This document shows positions 51,893-61,680 of a stretch of DNA of 64,000 nt, in pieces. This DNA comes from Candidatus Gastranaerophilales bacterium (GTDB taxonomy: Bacteria; Cyanobacteriota; Vampirovibrionia; Gastranaerophilales; Gastranaerophilaceae). The notes under the pieces are model-generated. The model was not told the DNA's origin, searched no databases, and saw only the letters and a program-made list of their open reading frames with translations. The DNA lies in contig CALUUK010000001.1 in assembly GCA_944323955.1 (NCBI GenBank), positions 248,001 through 312,000 on the forward strand. The letters are read 5' to 3'. Each line of letters begins with the position of its first letter. Position 1 is the first letter of the stretch. The position numbers were made by a program, and so were the translations under genes.

Positions 51893-53362
51893 ATGAAAAT
51901 TTTATTTAACAGTTTCAACATAGACGGATTAAAACGTCTCTCAGAAGGGCAGATAGCACAAACAGCACAAAATAACGCTTCTGTTTCATATCCGAATTTA
52001 AAACCGCTTGAAAAAGACACGGTGTCTTTTTCGGGACGTAAGACTCTGATTGCCAGTGACATGAGTATTGCACCTTCTGTGTCAAACTGCGCAAAGGTTA
52101 ATAAAGACGCTGAACCTGCAAGATTTTATCTTAATAGAATTTTGGATGAATATATAGGTCCATATGTTGATACAACTGATACCCTTGATACAAGAGATTA
52201 TCCTGTTCTGGCATGCAAAGTAAGAGTTAAAAGTCCTTTAAGTATCAGGGAAAAAGTTGTTTCCAAATATTCGGCAGCATATTCAAAAATGGCTGATGAT
52301 TTTGCGAAAAAGGTTTATGATGAACTTTCAAGATATTATGTGCCAAATCCTGATTGTAATGTAAAAGCGGTATTAAATGAGGTTAAAAGCTGCATTGAAG
52401 GGCATGATTCGCGCGGAGAATTTTTGGCATACTCGAATCCCGCATTAAATTATCATATTGCTCTTATGGTTTTACAAGAAGCAAATGCTTTTAAATTTGA
52501 TGCTCTTGGTCACGAAAAACAAAGCGCAATTGATACTGAAATTATTAAAAATATAATTCAATATGTAAGAGTGCAGGAACCAATGCAATCCACAGAATCT
52601 GCTGAAGGTATTAAGTCTTATGCCAATGATATTGTTGGTGCAAGAATTGTTTTAAGAGAGCCTGACCCTAATTATACTAAAAAGGTATTTAGTGCACTAA
52701 AGGCTGCGGTTGAAGCAGGTAAATTAAAAATTACATCAATAGAAAATAATATCCCTGATCCCGATAAATTACCCGAAGGCGACAGCGTATCGGATTATAT
52801 TTATGCTCATGATTATACACTTCAGGCATTAAGAAGGGTTTCCGGTTCGGAACTCAAAACAAATAAGTCTAAATCAGGCTATATGGCTGTTCATATAAAT
52901 GTTGATTTCTCGGATTGTGATTTTGCAAAAAACAAACGTTATTCAGGCTATAAAGGTGAAATCCAAATTTTAGGCCGCGAAGTTGAAAAATTAAAAGAAA
53001 TTGAAGATTTGTGCTACAAATTAAAAGACAATAAAAATGCCATAAAGTCGGAATACAAACCTTTTAAAATTCATTTTGAAAAATATTATACAGGCGATAC
53101 AAAAGACGTATTTGATGATTATACATATAAAATGTATCTGGCACAGCGCAGAAAACCAAAATCACCAAAAAGAAAAGATTTTCCGTCGCCGGCGCAGCTC
53201 GGATTTAAAGATAAATTGCCGGAACAGCTTGATTTTAATCAACTTGCAAAAATTAAAGCTGAATGCGATGCCGTTATAAAAATGAATGAAGCAAAAGAAC
53301 TTATTAATGAAATTCAGGCAACAATTATCGGTAAGAAAAGCAAAGATAAATATTATCATTAA
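51893..53362 (+). CDS. RelA/SpoT-domain-like protein (possible alarmone synthetase-type nucleotidyltransferase)
   Basis: 489 aa. A RelA/SpoT synthetase-like domain is visible in pieces: RVKSPLSIREK (111-121), DIVGARIVL (246-254), KSGYMAVHINV (327-337, cf. GYRSLHT) and KGEIQILGREV (354-364, cf. EVQIRT). About 120 residues of helical sequence are inserted between the first two. No HD hydrolase, TGS or ACT domains. The N-terminal ~100 residues are polar, with the motif VSFSG at 44-48. It may make (p)ppGpp or pyrophosphorylate another target such as tRNA; activity is unproven. Basic C-terminal tail. Confidence 0.72.
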   Translation: MKILFNSFNIDGLKRLSEGQIAQTAQNNASVSYPNLKPLEKDTVSFSGRKTLIASDMSIAPSVSNCAKVNKDAEPARFYLNRILDEYIGPYVDTTDTLDTRDYPVLACKVRVKSPLSIREKVVSKYSAAYSKMADDFAKKVYDELSRYYVPNPDCNVKAVLNEVKSCIEGHDSRGEFLAYSNPALNYHIALMVLQEANAFKFDALGHEKQSAIDTEIIKNIIQYVRVQEPMQSTESAEGIKSYANDIVGARIVLREPDPNYTKKVFSALKAAVEAGKLKITSIENNIPDPDKLPEGDSVSDYIYAHDYTLQALRRVSGSELKTNKSKSGYMAVHINVDFSDCDFAKNKRYSGYKGEIQILGREVEKLKEIEDLCYKLKDNKNAIKSEYKPFKIHFEKYYTGDTKDVFDDYTYKMYLAQRRKPKSPKRKDFPSPAQLGFKDKLPEQLDFNQLAKIKAECDAVIKMNEAKELINEIQATIIGKKSKDKYYH

Positions 53363-56010: not shown

Positions 56011-56946
56011 CTAACAAACTAATTTCTTAAAATATTCAATCGTTTTTAAAAGACCTGTTTCTACATTTATACAAGGCTGCCAGTTTAATTTTTCCCGTGC
56101 AAGTGAAATATCAGGTTCTCTTTGTGCGGGATCATCAGACGGAAGCGGCTTGAATACAATTGATGATTTTGATTCTGTAAGTTTTATTATTAACTTTGCA
56201 AAATCTATAATTTTAATTTCTTGAGGATTTCCCAAATTAACGGGACCTGTAAACCCAATAGTATTATTCATTAATTTTATCAACCCTTCCACCATATCAT
56301 CAACATAGCAAAATGCTCTGGTTTGACTACCGTCCCCGTATACCGTAATAGGTTCATTTTTAAGTGCCTGAATAATAAAATTGGAAACCACTCTGCCGTC
56401 ATTTAAAGCCATATTCGGACCGTATGTATTAAATATTCTTGCAATTCTTACCTGTATATTATTCTGTCTGTGATAATCCGACATCAGTGTTTCGGCGCAC
56501 CTTTTTCCCTCATCGTAGCAGCTTCTTAATCCTATCGGATTAACATTCCCCCGATAAGATTCCGGTTGAGGATGAATTTTAGGATCGCCGTATACTTCAC
56601 TTGTACTTGCCTGCAAAATAGTTGCATGACATCTTTTTGCAAGTCCGAGCATATTAATTGCTCCCATAACAGAGGTCTTTATTGTTTTTATAGGATTATA
56701 TTGATAGTGAACGGGAGAGGCGGGACAGGCAAGGTTGTATATTTGGTCTACTTCCGCAAAATATTCGTTTATAACGTCATGTCTGACAAGTTCAAACCTG
56801 TTGTTTCCTATTAAGTGTCTGATATTGTCTTTTGATCCGGTAAAAAAATTATCAAGGCAAATTATATCATGACCATCTTTTATTAGTCTTTCGGACAGAT
56901 GAGAACCGATAAATCCGGCACCGCCCGTAACCAATATTCTTTTCAT
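56011..56946 (-). CDS. NAD-dependent SDR decarboxylase, UDP-xylose synthase type
   Basis: 311 aa extended SDR. NAD motif [36 protein letters not shown] is the hallmark of UDP-glucuronate decarboxylase (UXS); active site STSEVYGDP, Tyr in [22 protein letters not shown]. Converts UDP-glucuronate to UDP-xylose for glycan synthesis (known of the family). ATG 56946 with AGAGG upstream. Divergent from the glycogen-synthase-like gene. The 179-nt gap is AT-rich without a clear promoter. Confidence 0.9.
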
Positions 56947-57131
56947 TATCAACCTCTCTCAATGCGTTTCTTAATTATCTCAAAATATATAAAAAAAGGG
57001 AAGAAAAATTTTAATTTTATATTTTTTTTAAATAATAAAAATGTAACAATTATTTAATAATAGTAAAAAAAATGACATAAAAAAACTGTTCGTGTTTTCA
57101 AGTAAATGTGGTTATTTAAGGGAGTTATATT

Positions 57132-59591
57132 ATGAGTATTAAAATGTTTCCTGTCGGATTTGGCAGTTCAAAACGCAATAAAGATAATAATATTTCGTCA
57201 AAAGAAGGCAATTCTTCAAAAAATTTCTTAACAGGCATTAAAAAAGCGGCTCCGGTTGTTTTGCCTTTAGCGTCAATTCCGCTTGCGGCACTTGTAACAC
57301 ACAAAGTTAATTCAAAACACAACGCACAAATCTGGTCTGCATTAATCGGTATTGCCGGTTTGGGCGGAGCATATACTGCGGGGAATTTGACTGCTGAACA
57401 AAAAGAAGATATCTCTCGCAGAGCCGAAGAAAGAGTAAATGCAGCGCTTAACGGTCAGAATACATTGAATCGTAAGTATACTACGGATTATAACGGTATT
57501 ACCCTTTTAAATACTTCGGATAATTTAAATCTTGATTCAGTAAAACTTAAAAAAGCTCATGAAAAAATTGAATCTGCAGCTGTAAAACGTTTGAATGAGG
57601 CTCCGGATGTGAAACCGATATTTAAAGAAAATCCCACATTATGGTCTGTAAGTTCAGAGTTTGCACCCGTGAAAGAAGGCGGTTTGGGCTCTGTTCCCGT
57701 TGAATTGCAAAATAATATGTCAAAATTAGGAATTGATGTTCCGACTTTTATTCCGATGTACCAGCAGCGCGGAATTGCAAGTTTCCGAAAAGAAAACGGT
57801 AAATATTTTTATACATATAAGGGAAAAGAATTTGAGCTTGATAAAGCTGCATCTTTTAAATTGGACACTTATCAGGACGGAAAATCAAAAACCGAGGATG
57901 TAAGTTTTTATACGGCAAATTTAGGTAAAGATGACAACGGTACGGATAAAAAACTTGTATTTGTCCATAATGATACCTACTTTAACGGTACGATATATCA
58001 ATCATCCGAAAAAACGGAAGAACCTGAAAAATTTGCATTTTTCTCAAAAGCCGTATATGAATTTGCAAAAGCAAAAGCTGATAAAAACAGTGTTAAAGGA
58101 CTTGTTATATCCGATAGAGATGCCTTTGACTCAATAAAATTCCCCGACGGCTTAATTTTAAATGACTGGCAGGCTTCTCCGATTGCAGCTCTTGCACGCT
58201 ATAAAGCACCTATGGAAAATGCATATAAGCAATTGTCAAATGAAGCTGCCGAAAAACTTTCTGATATGAGAATTATAACAATAGGACACAATGCTACTTA
58301 TCAAGGTTCTACAAGCAATAATAACGATAATTTACAAAGACATACCGCTACTTCTAATATTTTAAACACACTTTTTGATAATTATGCTTTTGATATTGTT
58401 TCTCATGCAAAAACGGCTGCATCTGAAGATGATATTACGGATTACGGGTTAAGAAATCTTGATAATGTTTTAATTTTAAACGACCATGATTATTGGGCAA
58501 ATCACACAAACCTTTTGAATATGGGAGTATGCTTAAGCGATTATTTCCATCCGGTTTCGGAAAATTATGCAAAGGAAATCATTTCTGATGAACATCCGGA
58601 ACTGGCCTGGGAATTGAGATGGGCACTTAATAAACGTGCAAAAGCCGGCTCTCTTATAGGAATAATTAACGGCAATGATTTTGCTAATCTTAATATTGAA
58701 GCTAAAAAAGAAGCTATAAAAAATACTGCGGGATTTACACCCGAAACATACTCTAAAGATTCTTCGACTGAGGAAATTATGAATGCACGTTTACATAATA
58801 AAATTGCAATGTATAACGAGTTTATGATTCCTTTCACCCGGAAAGATACAAATGATGAATCTGATAAAGTGAGAAAAATAAGGAGTATTACCGAGAGATT
58901 TGAAATGGTAAATCCGACCGGAGAAACAAACTTACCGATTTTATCGGATGAAGAACTTGCTGCTGCTCCGATTTTATCATCAGCAGGAAGATTGGTATCT
59001 CAAAAGGGTGTAAAACTTATGTCTGATGCAATTAAAATGCTTTATGATAATTGGGATGAAGAATTTCCCGGCAAACCAAAACCCTTATTCTATTTGGCAG
59101 GGCAAGACGGTGAAGGCGGTACGCAAAGAGCTCATATAGAAAATTTAAAAAAAGAACTGGATAAAGATGACTCCGACAGAGTTATATTCGGTCATGGGTT
59201 TGCTCCTATGCAGGCAATAATGGCTTCTTCCGACTTCTTTATGCTGCCGAGTTTATTTGAACCCTGCGGTCTAACCCAGGGAGAATCATTTGCACTGGCA
59301 ACTCCGGTTATCGGAAGCGCTGTCGGAGGAATAGTAGATACTGTTAACAGAAATGGTAAAACAAACGGAATACTTACGGATAAAAATTCAAAACTAACAC
59401 CCGAAGAGTTTTATAACGCAATAAAAACAGCTCTTCATATATACTTTGATGAACCTGAAAAGTATAAATCAATGGTGAAAGATTCTTTGGCAGAAGATTT
59501 TAGCTGGATTCAAAAGGGTAAAAACGGCCCCGTATATGACTATCTGGATAAAATTGGAATAAAACGCGAAAATCTTCCTGACATTCATTAG
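57132..59591 (+). CDS. glgA: Glycogen synthase-like GT5 enzyme with membrane-anchoring N-terminal extension
   Basis: 819 aa, well above the usual ~480. The catalytic part begins near residue 168: WSVSSEFAPVKEGGLGSVPVEL (KxGGL ADP-glucose site), IGHNATYQGS, SAGRLVSQKGVKLM, and FEPCGLTQGESFALATPVIGSAVGGI (catalytic Glu and nucleotide-binding loop). The N-terminal 167 residues contain two hydrophobic segments (about 37-56 and 65-83) and a helical stretch, no cleavable signal. It probably elongates an alpha-glucan at the membrane. A GGGAG ribosome site is present. Confidence 0.85.
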   Translation: MSIKMFPVGFGSSKRNKDNNISSKEGNSSKNFLTGIKKAAPVVLPLASIPLAALVTHKVNSKHNAQIWSALIGIAGLGGAYTAGNLTAEQKEDISRRAEERVNAALNGQNTLNRKYTTDYNGITLLNTSDNLNLDSVKLKKAHEKIESAAVKRLNEAPDVKPIFKENPTLWSVSSEFAPVKEGGLGSVPVELQNNMSKLGIDVPTFIPMYQQRGIASFRKENGKYFYTYKGKEFELDKAASFKLDTYQDGKSKTEDVSFYTANLGKDDNGTDKKLVFVHNDTYFNGTIYQSSEKTEEPEKFAFFSKAVYEFAKAKADKNSVKGLVISDRDAFDSIKFPDGLILNDWQASPIAALARYKAPMENAYKQLSNEAAEKLSDMRIITIGHNATYQGSTSNNNDNLQRHTATSNILNTLFDNYAFDIVSHAKTAASEDDITDYGLRNLDNVLILNDHDYWANHTNLLNMGVCLSDYFHPVSENYAKEIISDEHPELAWELRWALNKRAKAGSLIGIINGNDFANLNIEAKKEAIKNTAGFTPETYSKDSSTEEIMNARLHNKIAMYNEFMIPFTRKDTNDESDKVRKIRSITERFEMVNPTGETNLPILSDEELAAAPILSSAGRLVSQKGVKLMSDAIKMLYDNWDEEFPGKPKPLFYLAGQDGEGGTQRAHIENLKKELDKDDSDRVIFGHGFAPMQAIMASSDFFMLPSLFEPCGLTQGESFALATPVIGSAVGGIVDTVNRNGKTNGILTDKNSKLTPEEFYNAIKTALHIYFDEPEKYKSMVKDSLAEDFSWIQKGKNGPVYDYLDKIGIKRENLPDIH

Positions 59592-59649: not shown

Positions 59650-61680
59650 ATGTCCGTTAATTACAAACAATTATTTGATAAAGCATATAAATTGCACAGT
59701 ATGGGCAATTTTGACGAAGCTGAAAAATTGTATAATATACTAATTGAAATGTCTCCTGAAGACAGTAATACTTTAAACCTGTACGGGCTTTTGTGTATTG
59801 CAAAAAAGGATTATCAAAAAGCTATTACCTATTTATCTAAAGCCGTAGTCTTGTCCAAGTCTCCTATTGCCGTTACAAATCTGGGGAAAGCACATCTTTC
59901 TAATAACGAGTATGAGAAAGCTATAAGACTGTTTCGGCAGTCATTGCAAATTTCGCCAAATGACGATACTTATTACTCAATGGCAATAGCATATAAAAAG
60001 ATGAAAAATCTTGAAATGTCAGCTCAATGCTATGAAAAAGCTCTTGAATTAAATCCGAACAATTATAATGCCGGCTATAATTTAGTTGTCGCTTACAAAG
60101 ATTTGAAAAGATATAAAGAAGCAATTAATTATGCAAACAAATGCATATTATTAAATCCTAAAGCAGAAGAAATATATTCTTTGTTGTCTTTTTTATATGA
60201 ATGTGTGAATGATTTAAAATCTGCGGTTAAAGCGCTTGAGAAAGCGGCTATGCTTGATCCCAAACAGTATTTGTATTTTTATAACCTCGGTGTTTTGTAT
60301 TCAAAACTGCATGATTCCGAGAATTCAATCTTAAATTATAAAAAAGTAATTGCGTTGAAGCCTGACAGTACTGCCGCACTTGTTAATTTATCGCTATTGT
60401 ACAGAAAAAGAAATATAAATCTTTCTCTGCAATATATTTTACTGGCTCAAAAAAATTCGCCAAAAGCAAAAAATGTTCTTTTAAACCTTGCTCAGATATA
60501 TAAAGATATGGGCAGAAACAGTGAAAGTATAAAAACTGCTGATGAAATTTTAAATATAAATCCGAAATCTCATGAAGCATATTCTATTCTGGCAATGAAC
60601 TATATGGATATGTGTGAATACACTACGGCTTACAATTATTATGAAAAAGCATTGGAATTATCTCCCGATACTCCTTCATATTTACACGGAAAAGCAGTGG
60701 CTTTAAAATATCTCGGTAAAACAGCAGAGTTTAAGGAACTGATGAATACGGTCTTTAAAAAAGACCCCAATACACCTGAGGTAAGAATTACTCTGGGAAT
60801 GTCCTATCTTGCTGATAAAGAATTTCAAAAAGGAATGGAACTTTACAGAGCAAGAAATCTTAATACGAACTTTAACAGATTTTTTGGAAATAAGTGCTGG
60901 AAGGAAAGCGATGATATTTCCGGAAAAAATGTTCTTTTATACTCGAATTGCGGACTCGGCGATACTTTAATGTATGCCAGATATTTTAATTTTGTTGCCG
61001 AAAAAGCAAGAAATGTTATTGTTCAGACTGATGATGCATTAATAAAAATATTAAGAAATAATTATAAAAATATTGAATTTATATCTAAAAAAATACAATG
61101 TAATGCTGATTATGACATTGCTGTTCCTATTATGGATATACCTTATATACTAAACATGGATTTTTCGAATATTCCCTCAAAAGAAGGTTATATAAAGGCT
61201 GATGATGAATTAGTTCAAGAATTTTCCAAATTGGATGTTTTTAATACAGAAAAAAAGAAAATAGGATTGTTTTTACAAGGTAACAGAAGAATATTTAAAA
61301 ACAGATTTATTCCTCAGAATTCGGTCTTGCCCTTTTTTGAGAATCAAAATATTCAATTTTATTCGTTTCAAATATCACAGGATATTTCGTTCAATGAAAA
61401 TATCATTAACTTTAAGCAGTATATAAAAGATTATAATGACACTGCGGCGATACTTAAAAATATTGATTTACTTATTTCTATTGATTCTTCAATAGTTCAT
61501 ATGGCCGGAGCTTTAGGTGTTAAAACTTTTTTGATGCTGCCATATACTCCAGAATGGCGCTGGTTTAATGACTGTGAAACGTCTTCATGGTATAACAGTG
61601 TAAAAATATTTAAACAGAGCAAAATAGCTGACTGGACGGATGTATTTGACAGAATTAATACATGCTTAAAAAAATTATGA
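59650..61680 (+). CDS. TPR repeat - glycosyltransferase-like fusion protein
   Basis: 676 aa. Residues 1 to about 400 are some ten TPRs; the C-terminal part (about 425-676) is a GT-B/GT9-like domain with SNCGLGDTLMYARYFNFVAEKA, FLQGNRRIFKNRF, and LLISIDSSIVHMAGALGVKTFLMLPYTPEWRW, the donor-binding signature seen in TPR-linked transferases related to SPINDLY/O-GlcNAc transferases. It may glycosylate proteins or surface polymers; the acceptor is unknown. Ends in an ATGA overlap with rlmD. Confidence 0.85.
   Translation: MSVNYKQLFDKAYKLHSMGNFDEAEKLYNILIEMSPEDSNTLNLYGLLCIAKKDYQKAITYLSKAVVLSKSPIAVTNLGKAHLSNNEYEKAIRLFRQSLQISPNDDTYYSMAIAYKKMKNLEMSAQCYEKALELNPNNYNAGYNLVVAYKDLKRYKEAINYANKCILLNPKAEEIYSLLSFLYECVNDLKSAVKALEKAAMLDPKQYLYFYNLGVLYSKLHDSENSILNYKKVIALKPDSTAALVNLSLLYRKRNINLSLQYILLAQKNSPKAKNVLLNLAQIYKDMGRNSESIKTADEILNINPKSHEAYSILAMNYMDMCEYTTAYNYYEKALELSPDTPSYLHGKAVALKYLGKTAEFKELMNTVFKKDPNTPEVRITLGMSYLADKEFQKGMELYRARNLNTNFNRFFGNKCWKESDDISGKNVLLYSNCGLGDTLMYARYFNFVAEKARNVIVQTDDALIKILRNNYKNIEFISKKIQCNADYDIAVPIMDIPYILNMDFSNIPSKEGYIKADDELVQEFSKLDVFNTEKKKIGLFLQGNRRIFKNRFIPQNSVLPFFENQNIQFYSFQISQDISFNENIINFKQYIKDYNDTAAILKNIDLLISIDSSIVHMAGALGVKTFLMLPYTPEWRWFNDCETSSWYNSVKIFKQSKIADWTDVFDRINTCLKKL

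Follow-up and report, generated by a model that had tools for sequence, protein, structure and literature searches.

To our knowledge, bacterial glycogen synthases are regarded as soluble. In plants, MFP1, which combines a short transmembrane domain with coiled coils, brings SS4 and PTST2 to the thylakoid, and both are redirected when MFP1 is targeted to the envelope (PMC10801857). Re-entrant membrane domains, whose two ends lie on the same side of the membrane, are marked by an N-terminal location, positive charges ahead of the segment and a helix-breaking proline, and in caveolin-1 an Ile-Pro motif is decisive for the re-entrant domain (PMC6133551). The subject of this study is a gene of a Candidatus Gastranaerophilales bacterium, contained in a stretch of 64,000 nucleotides that is called the window below (NCBI GenBank assembly GCA_944323955.1, contig CALUUK010000001.1, positions 248,001 to 312,000 of the forward strand). 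The gene encodes an 819-residue glycosyltransferase of family GT5, the window protein, which carries an N-terminal extension of 167 residues. We put the chances at about even that this bacterium has, in the window protein, a second glycogen synthase isoform that is tethered to the membrane and predicted from its sequence to act at the cytoplasmic side of the inner membrane.

With GlgA (CAZy GT5; E. coli structure 2qzs, TIGR02095) the window protein shares the GT-B fold, the KxGGL and EPCGLTQ motifs and the donor and acceptor contacts, but it differs in its 23% identity to 2qzs, its core of 650 rather than 477 residues, its extension and its score below the TIGR02095 cut-off. The closest parallel that has been worked out is granule initiation in plants, where SS4, likewise a GT5 isoform, is brought to a membrane through a membrane segment and coiled coils (PMC10801857); here the membrane segment is a predicted one, and a coiled-coil-like stretch is seen by eye in the orthologues. 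The plant anchor is a separate protein, whereas the putative one described here would be fused to the enzyme, and the parallel drawn is one of arrangement. The anchors of PglC and caveolin-1 resemble the extension in their N-terminal positive charges, their short hydrophobic segment and a proline break after a serine or branched residue (PMC6133551). In contrast to these, the window protein and its orthologues have up to three prolines and belong to another enzyme family with another acceptor, and the likeness drawn here is one of features. The literature on GlgA or glycogen synthase anchoring and on glycogen in Gastranaerophilales/Melainabacteria, covered through the titles and abstract openings listed and through passages of PMC4040986 and PMC5877343, with most subscription journals outside its coverage, yielded no membrane-anchored GT5.

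The gene and its N-terminal extension

The reading frame and its ribosome-binding region are placed as follows.

57132..59591, + strand: coding sequence of the GT5-type glucan synthase with N-terminal extension, 819 amino acids (open reading frame, Pfam and orthologues)
57118..57124, + strand: Shine-Dalgarno-like AAGGGAG, with the ATG 7 bases further on (read directly from the sequence)

The start is considered sound because of the AAGGGAG site and because merely four codons separate the ATG from the in-frame stop upstream. Among 98 related genomes, 41 of the same genus (own genome included) and 57 outside it, an orthologue was found in 40 of the 41 genus genomes (E <= 2.3e-179), the sole genome without a match, G031, being 70% complete. 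Outside the genus, 5 of the 57 genomes match the window protein at E < 1e-30, and two proteins from Candidatus Gastranaerophilales metagenome-assembled genomes (MAGs), L058 and L059, are 52% and 48% identical to it (alignment A2).

Of the 40 genus orthologues, 33 were read; L023 is cut short by a contig end, while the other 32 have a comparable N-terminus. The extension, delimited by the structural alignment of residue 168 with residue 1 of E. coli GlgA, is thus common to all 32 complete orthologues. Its ratio of nonsynonymous to synonymous substitution rates (dN/dS) is 0.09-0.24 in ten pairs, against 0.05-0.13 for the core, with synonymous sites near saturation in the pair P0001-L002. Together, this conservation and these ratios indicate that the extension is translated and under purifying selection. 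The preliminary description of the locus had reckoned with a wrong start, to be recognised by relatives lacking the extension; a wrong start or chance open frame is instead ruled out by the presence of the extension in every complete orthologue, its dN/dS and the Shine-Dalgarno-like site.

From its N-terminus, the extension consists of a short peptide, a lysine-rich linker, two hydrophobic segments (H1 and H2), a helical linker and a helix that adjoins the core, which starts at residue 168. Hydropathy is given on the Kyte-Doolittle (KD) scale, and confidence of the AlphaFold2 model as predicted local distance difference test (pLDDT).

57132..57170, + strand: N-terminal peptide, residues 1-13, MSIKMFPVGFGSS (alignment A1)
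57246..57302, + strand: hydrophobic segment H1, residues 39-57, with P41-x3-P45-x3-I49-P50 (KD 1.67, pattern in 32 of 32 orthologues); probable re-entrant membrane segment
57324..57380, + strand: weaker, glycine-rich hydrophobic segment H2, residues 65-83 (KD 1.12)
57393..57488, + strand: predicted helical linker, residues 88-119 (AlphaFold2, block pLDDT about 47-77)
57537..57596, + strand: helix adjoining the core, residues 136-155 (AlphaFold2, block pLDDT 68-95)

Amid a poorly conserved extension, M1, F6, P41, I49, P50 and G76 are invariant in alignment A1 (26 sequences). The first ten residues contain F-S-x-[F/I/M] near residue 6 in most orthologues and F-P-V-G-F in the window protein. From the H1 pattern to H2, 31 orthologues have 43-59 residues, which look coiled-coil-like by eye and contain on average 18% K+R against 11% D+E; the window protein, with 8 residues (57303-57323), is the only one of the 32 complete orthologues without this stretch.

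The catalytic core

The remainder of the protein is a GT5 enzyme with the motifs of that family.

57633..59564, + strand: GT-B catalytic core, residues 168-811, enlarged by insertions when compared with E. coli GlgA (Pfam and 2qzs match)
57672..57689, + strand: KEGGLG, residues 181-186, K181 corresponding to E. coli K15 (sequence and alignment)
58287..58307, + strand: HNATYQG, residues 386-392, H386 corresponding to H161 and Y390 to Y165 (sequence and alignment)
59256..59279, + strand: FEPCGLTQ, residues 709-716, E710 corresponding to E377, C712 to C379 and T715 to T382 (sequence and alignment)

Pfam assigns residues 172-487 to Glyco_transf_5 (PF08323; 89.9 bits, cut-off 22.7) and residues 613-779 to Glycos_transf_1 (PF00534), and the glgA model TIGR02095 scores 170.8 bits, below its cut-off of 328.45. 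The AlphaFold2 model matches E. coli GlgA 2qzs with a Z score of 27.3 and a root-mean-square deviation of 2.6 over 460 residues at 23% identity, and the catalytic domain of plant SS4 is among its best structural matches (Z 27.0). The 460 aligned residues, out of the 477 of E. coli GlgA, are spread over model residues 168-810, and insertions in the core amount to about 180 residues. The preliminary description is thereby borne out in its account of an 819-residue frame with three GlgA motifs (beginning at K181, H386 and F709), an N-terminus of 167 residues and an enlarged core.

The residues corresponding to K15, G18, Y95, D137, H161, Y165, N246, R300, K305, G354, E377, C379 and T382 of E. coli GlgA (K181, G184, Y289, D345, H386, Y390, N513, R620, K625, G689, E710, C712 and T715 in the window protein) are the same in all 13 genus sequences tested; the ADP-glucose and acceptor contacts among them were taken from a table in PMC6210743, except C379 (C712), which is absent from that table. 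Tyr95, Asp137 and Tyr165 are the E. coli GlgA residues in contact with glucose +1 and +2 of the acceptor glucan (PMC6210743); as all 13 sequences retain them, the new acceptor that had been suggested for this protein is not supported. The adenine-stacking Y355 is F690 in the window protein, an aromatic residue as in Ostreococcus SSIII-B (PMC6210743). Further changes relative to E. coli GlgA are V297 to S, H356 to A and S360 to M, whereby the assignments around 354-360 are less sure since the alignment is gapped there, and Ser298 of PMC6210743 was left unused owing to a mismatch with the numbering of the chain used.

By far the simplest prediction from these features is that the protein synthesises alpha-1,4-glucan and takes the glucose from a nucleotide donor. 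The C-terminal 650 residues would be a complete GT-B enzyme, whose donor is most likely ADP-glucose and which would extend cytoplasmic alpha-1,4-glucan chains by adding glucose at their non-reducing end. GT5 and glycogen phosphorylase (GT35) have the GT-B fold in common. Residues 164-819 of the model do align over a longer stretch with glycogen phosphorylases (about 520-540 residues, Z about 24) than with GlgA, but at 12-14% identity, and assignment to GT35 is also excluded by the intact GT5 motifs and by a Pfam result without any phosphorylase family.

Besides the 819-residue protein, the same genome encodes a canonical GlgA of 482 residues, a third GT5 (991-codon frame), a GlgC that scores over its cut-off and two proteins with an Alpha-amylase_C domain. 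A canonical GlgA (frame of 374-510 codons) is present in 40 of the 41 genus genomes, the exception being G027. Since ordinary GlgA and GlgC occur in the same genome, the 819-residue protein is taken to be an additional isoform.

Possible membrane association of the extension

The preliminary description had derived a membrane anchor from two hydrophobic segments. Both segments exist, but only the first is worth discussing as membrane-inserted: over 32 sequences, H2 reaches KD values of 0.67-1.40 and its score on the octanol scale is below zero in 25, which is too weak to span a membrane, whereas H1 has KD values of 1.56-2.11 over the orthologues and an octanol score of 3.8 in the window protein (2.1-6.7 in the orthologues). 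Speaking for insertion of another kind is the proline pattern of H1. P-x3-[P/S/C]-x3-I-P is found in H1 of 32 of 32 orthologues, with proline at the middle position in 25, serine in 6 and cysteine in 1, so that 25 have three prolines, and I49-P50, a helix-breaking proline after a branched residue, is kept in all. Among 50 hydrophobic 19-mers from ten membrane proteins of the window, a small control whose members were named by eye, three contain two prolines and none contains three. H1 is flanked by K/R on either side, with K37-K38 directly before residues 39-57, and the 19 residues preceding it contain 5.5 K+R on average (32 sequences; 4 in the window protein).

A proline-broken, lysine-flanked H1 fits a re-entrant (monotopic) anchor with both ends on the cytoplasmic side, and membrane attachment is plausible on these sequence features. 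H1 would dip into the inner leaflet of the cytoplasmic membrane and return, so that its ends and the enzyme stay cytoplasmic, while H2 may lie at the membrane interface or pack on H1; in the orthologues, the coiled-coil-like stretch between the two probably adds self-association. Such a topology would keep the enzyme with its nucleotide sugar and would explain the charge on both sides of H1. The likely role of the tethered enzyme would be to position or initiate glucan formation at the membrane, leaving bulk elongation to soluble GlgA. Two spans with a periplasmic stretch between them were rejected as the leading option, since H2 is too weak and the K+R-rich stretch would be ill-suited to the periplasm. 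A single span is disfavoured, since with the lysine-rich N-terminus inside it would place the enzyme outside, away from nucleotide sugars.

Several observations weigh against membrane insertion of H1 or a general need for it. With seven membrane proteins and 17 proteins taken as soluble as controls, the octanol scores of the seven membrane proteins of the window (10.4-17.2) are far above that of H1, whereas Pgi, RecG and SIS from the soluble set reach 6.8-7.0 and MurB, at 3.8, equals it. On the KD scale, 3 of the 17 soluble controls exceed H1, and the GT5 core itself reaches KD 1.29-1.68 (1.54 in the window protein) and octanol scores up to 4.1. H1 is hence no ordinary transmembrane helix, and hydropathy alone fails to set it apart from stretches of soluble proteins. 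The structural model gives no support for its insertion either, because confidence is low there: residues 1-63 have pLDDT below 50, and residues 1-170 modelled alone average 45.7. As L059 has kept the core and lacks H1 and the stretch after it, anchoring is not essential to the family. L036, L037 and L058 lack the triple-proline pattern (judged by eye). A segment of KD 1.50-2.30 outside the core is present in seven of 11 other large GT5 of the class (L035, L036, both L037, L050, L051 and L052; the top segment of L050 falls in an upstream portion of the frame that is doubtful, and its next segment also passes), but four (L038, L053 and two L049 proteins) have none, and the two more closely related MAG proteins divide likewise, with KD 1.97 in L058 and no such segment in L059. 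Against the reading as a glycogen synthase isoform, the neighbours of the gene include no known glycogen genes. Of the membrane-based synthesis proposed in the preliminary description, a plausible re-entrant segment is retained, whereas two spans are not, and the hydropathy of H1 within the soluble range and the H1-less L059 count against it.

Family placement and paralogues

A quick maximum-likelihood tree of 58 GT5 proteins, whose deeper order is unsure owing to several long branches and open forks, places the genus clade together with other large GT5 of the class and eleven proteobacterial MAG proteins, apart from 21 canonical rows (support 99). These rows comprise the organism's own GlgA and 23 sequences hand-picked from 80 loci, less two dropped for their length and one lacking the trimming motif. 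The phylogeny that had been proposed as a check on the protein thus sets its clade apart from canonical GlgA. The eleven proteobacterial GT5 (L060-L069 and L074), which come from MAGs mostly titled Alphaproteobacteria and in several cases from rumen or gut by title, have 665-681 residues and, by eye and with starts chosen by rule, no comparable extension; they form one clade (support 100), whose link to L038 (G045) is an open fork. In G063, a relative in a 929-codon frame (L037:4313-7099, - strand) has K15, D137 and C379 replaced and is probably non-catalytic; it lies one gene from another GT5, itself with Q at K15.

In the third GT5 of the genome (L035:8929-11871; G000:C1:142928-145870), the core is followed by a hydrophobic segment of KD 1.38, a coiled-coil-like stretch, a second hydrophobic segment of KD 2.30, a linker and a tail. 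Like the genus orthologues of the window protein, it has a GT5 core, two hydrophobic segments around a coiled-coil-like stretch and, at its free end, a short peptide, in this case F-[S/A/Q]-x-F, but unlike them it carries module and peptide at the C-terminus, in mirror order. The tails of L035 and its orthologues L139-L142 read LFSNFAKYV, LFAGFPKYQ, PFSNFNQYVS, PFANFNQYVS and LFQHFSQYV. Strict F-S-x-F occurs in two of these five, which, together with F-P-V-G-F in the window protein, weakens the case for F-S-x-F as a common docking peptide. The N-terminal leaders of the third GT5 (L035:8929 onward) and of a GlgC-like nucleotidyltransferase (L173:1234-3111) end in PVSFxG or PVSFGA, and a comparable VSFSG is found in the protein at window position 51893; this may be a sorting peptide, although it is not enriched in a small sample of open reading frames. 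A general N-terminal [S/T]FxG tag was rejected, as the pattern occurs in 4 of 84 open reading frames and is apparently accidental in at least two.

A broader proposal, which we advance only tentatively, is that a clade of glycogen synthases that anchor themselves has radiated in Gastranaerophilales. In these enzymes a GT5 would be fused to a proline-broken re-entrant segment and mostly to a coiled coil, a module standing at either end of the enzyme in different paralogues, so that a single polypeptide would fix the inner membrane as the place where glycogen is initiated.

Genomic context

The gene lies between a divergent and a co-directional neighbour.

56011..56952, - strand: divergent neighbour, NAD-dependent sugar epimerase/dehydratase (PF01370, 176.3 bits)
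59650..61680, + strand: co-directional TPR protein, 58 bases downstream, C-terminal part weakly GT9-like (E 0.021, below cut-off)

By eye, the epimerase is UDP-xylose-synthase-like. All 10 genus loci compared have the divergent sugar epimerase upstream and homologues of the TPR gene and of a RumA-like gene downstream, whereas the order epimerase-GT5-TPR is not kept in L036, L037 and L038. Between epimerase and GT5, L040 has a gene for an MsbA-like ABC exporter (515 bits, cut-off 602) and L043 one that is alike by eye; neither the window nor L039 has an exporter gene at this position. Upstream, the window also encodes an outer membrane efflux protein (OEP) and what may be an outer-membrane barrel (E 0.2, below cut-off). 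In L037 (G063), a sugar nucleotidyltransferase (NTP_transferase, 60.8 bits) stands between two GT5 genes; its homologue in the own genome is located elsewhere and is 38% identical. As 35 of the 98 genomes have a match and 22 of the 41 genus genomes have none, a tight link of the GT5 to this nucleotidyltransferase was rejected as not required.

Two further genes of the window are recorded here. The protein of 489 residues at 51893-53362 is matched in 30 of the 35 genus genomes that were searched, is located close to the GT5 gene in 8 of 10 loci and gave no Pfam match at E <= 1; by eye, it may resemble a RelA/SpoT synthetase domain. The protein of 360 residues at 50751-51833 matches the isomerase half only of GlmS (TIGR01135 positions 252-604, 229 bits, below cut-off).

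Alternative explanations

The extension can be read without a membrane. The enzyme may be soluble, with H1, H2 and the intervening stretch forming a protein-protein or self-assembly module that binds a granule surface or scaffold and buries its hydrophobic residues in an oligomer, a reading which we find possible but somewhat unlikely. It agrees with hydropathy values within the range of proteins taken as soluble, with the 43-59 residues that look coiled-coil-like in 31 orthologues and with a conserved N-terminal peptide whose invariant F6 recalls a docking motif. However, with just 8 residues from the H1 pattern to H2 the window protein has no coiled coil for such burial, lysines flank H1 on both sides, and the AlphaFold2 model leaves H1 unpacked, at a confidence too low to count. 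That the protein is no synthase at all and instead a catalytically weak or regulatory paralogue, such as a glucan sensor, appears very improbable: long branches in the clade of large GT5 would suit it, as would the 929-codon relative in G063 that lost K15, D137 and C379 and several others that lost K15, but the window protein and 12 genus relatives retain all 13 positions, and the dN/dS of the core is 0.05-0.13.

If the enzyme is at the membrane, its product may be other than glycogen. A membrane-bound GT5 that makes a lipid-linked or surface glucan, with export through a system encoded nearby, would account for the sugar epimerase and TPR neighbours in 10 of 10 genus loci, for the exporter genes in L040 (below cut-off) and L043 (by eye) and for the OEP efflux protein and possible barrel (below cut-off) upstream. 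We consider this cell-envelope role improbable, since no exporter gene intervenes in the window or L039, the synteny is lost in L036, L037 and L038, the relative in G063 adjoins a sugar nucleotidyltransferase instead and the residues contacting the acceptor glucan are those of GlgA.

Implications

Should H1 prove to belong to a soluble protein, the 819-residue enzyme would be merely a divergent GT5 with a scaffold domain. If it is indeed tethered, a conserved, self-anchored isoform beside ordinary GlgA would make the site at which the bacterial glycogen granule originates directly testable, and the proline-rich segment would join the few known re-entrant anchors. It would also offer a bacterial parallel to granule initiation in plants, in the sister group of the photosynthetic Cyanobacteria, with one polypeptide doing what in plants is shared out between SS4 and MFP1.

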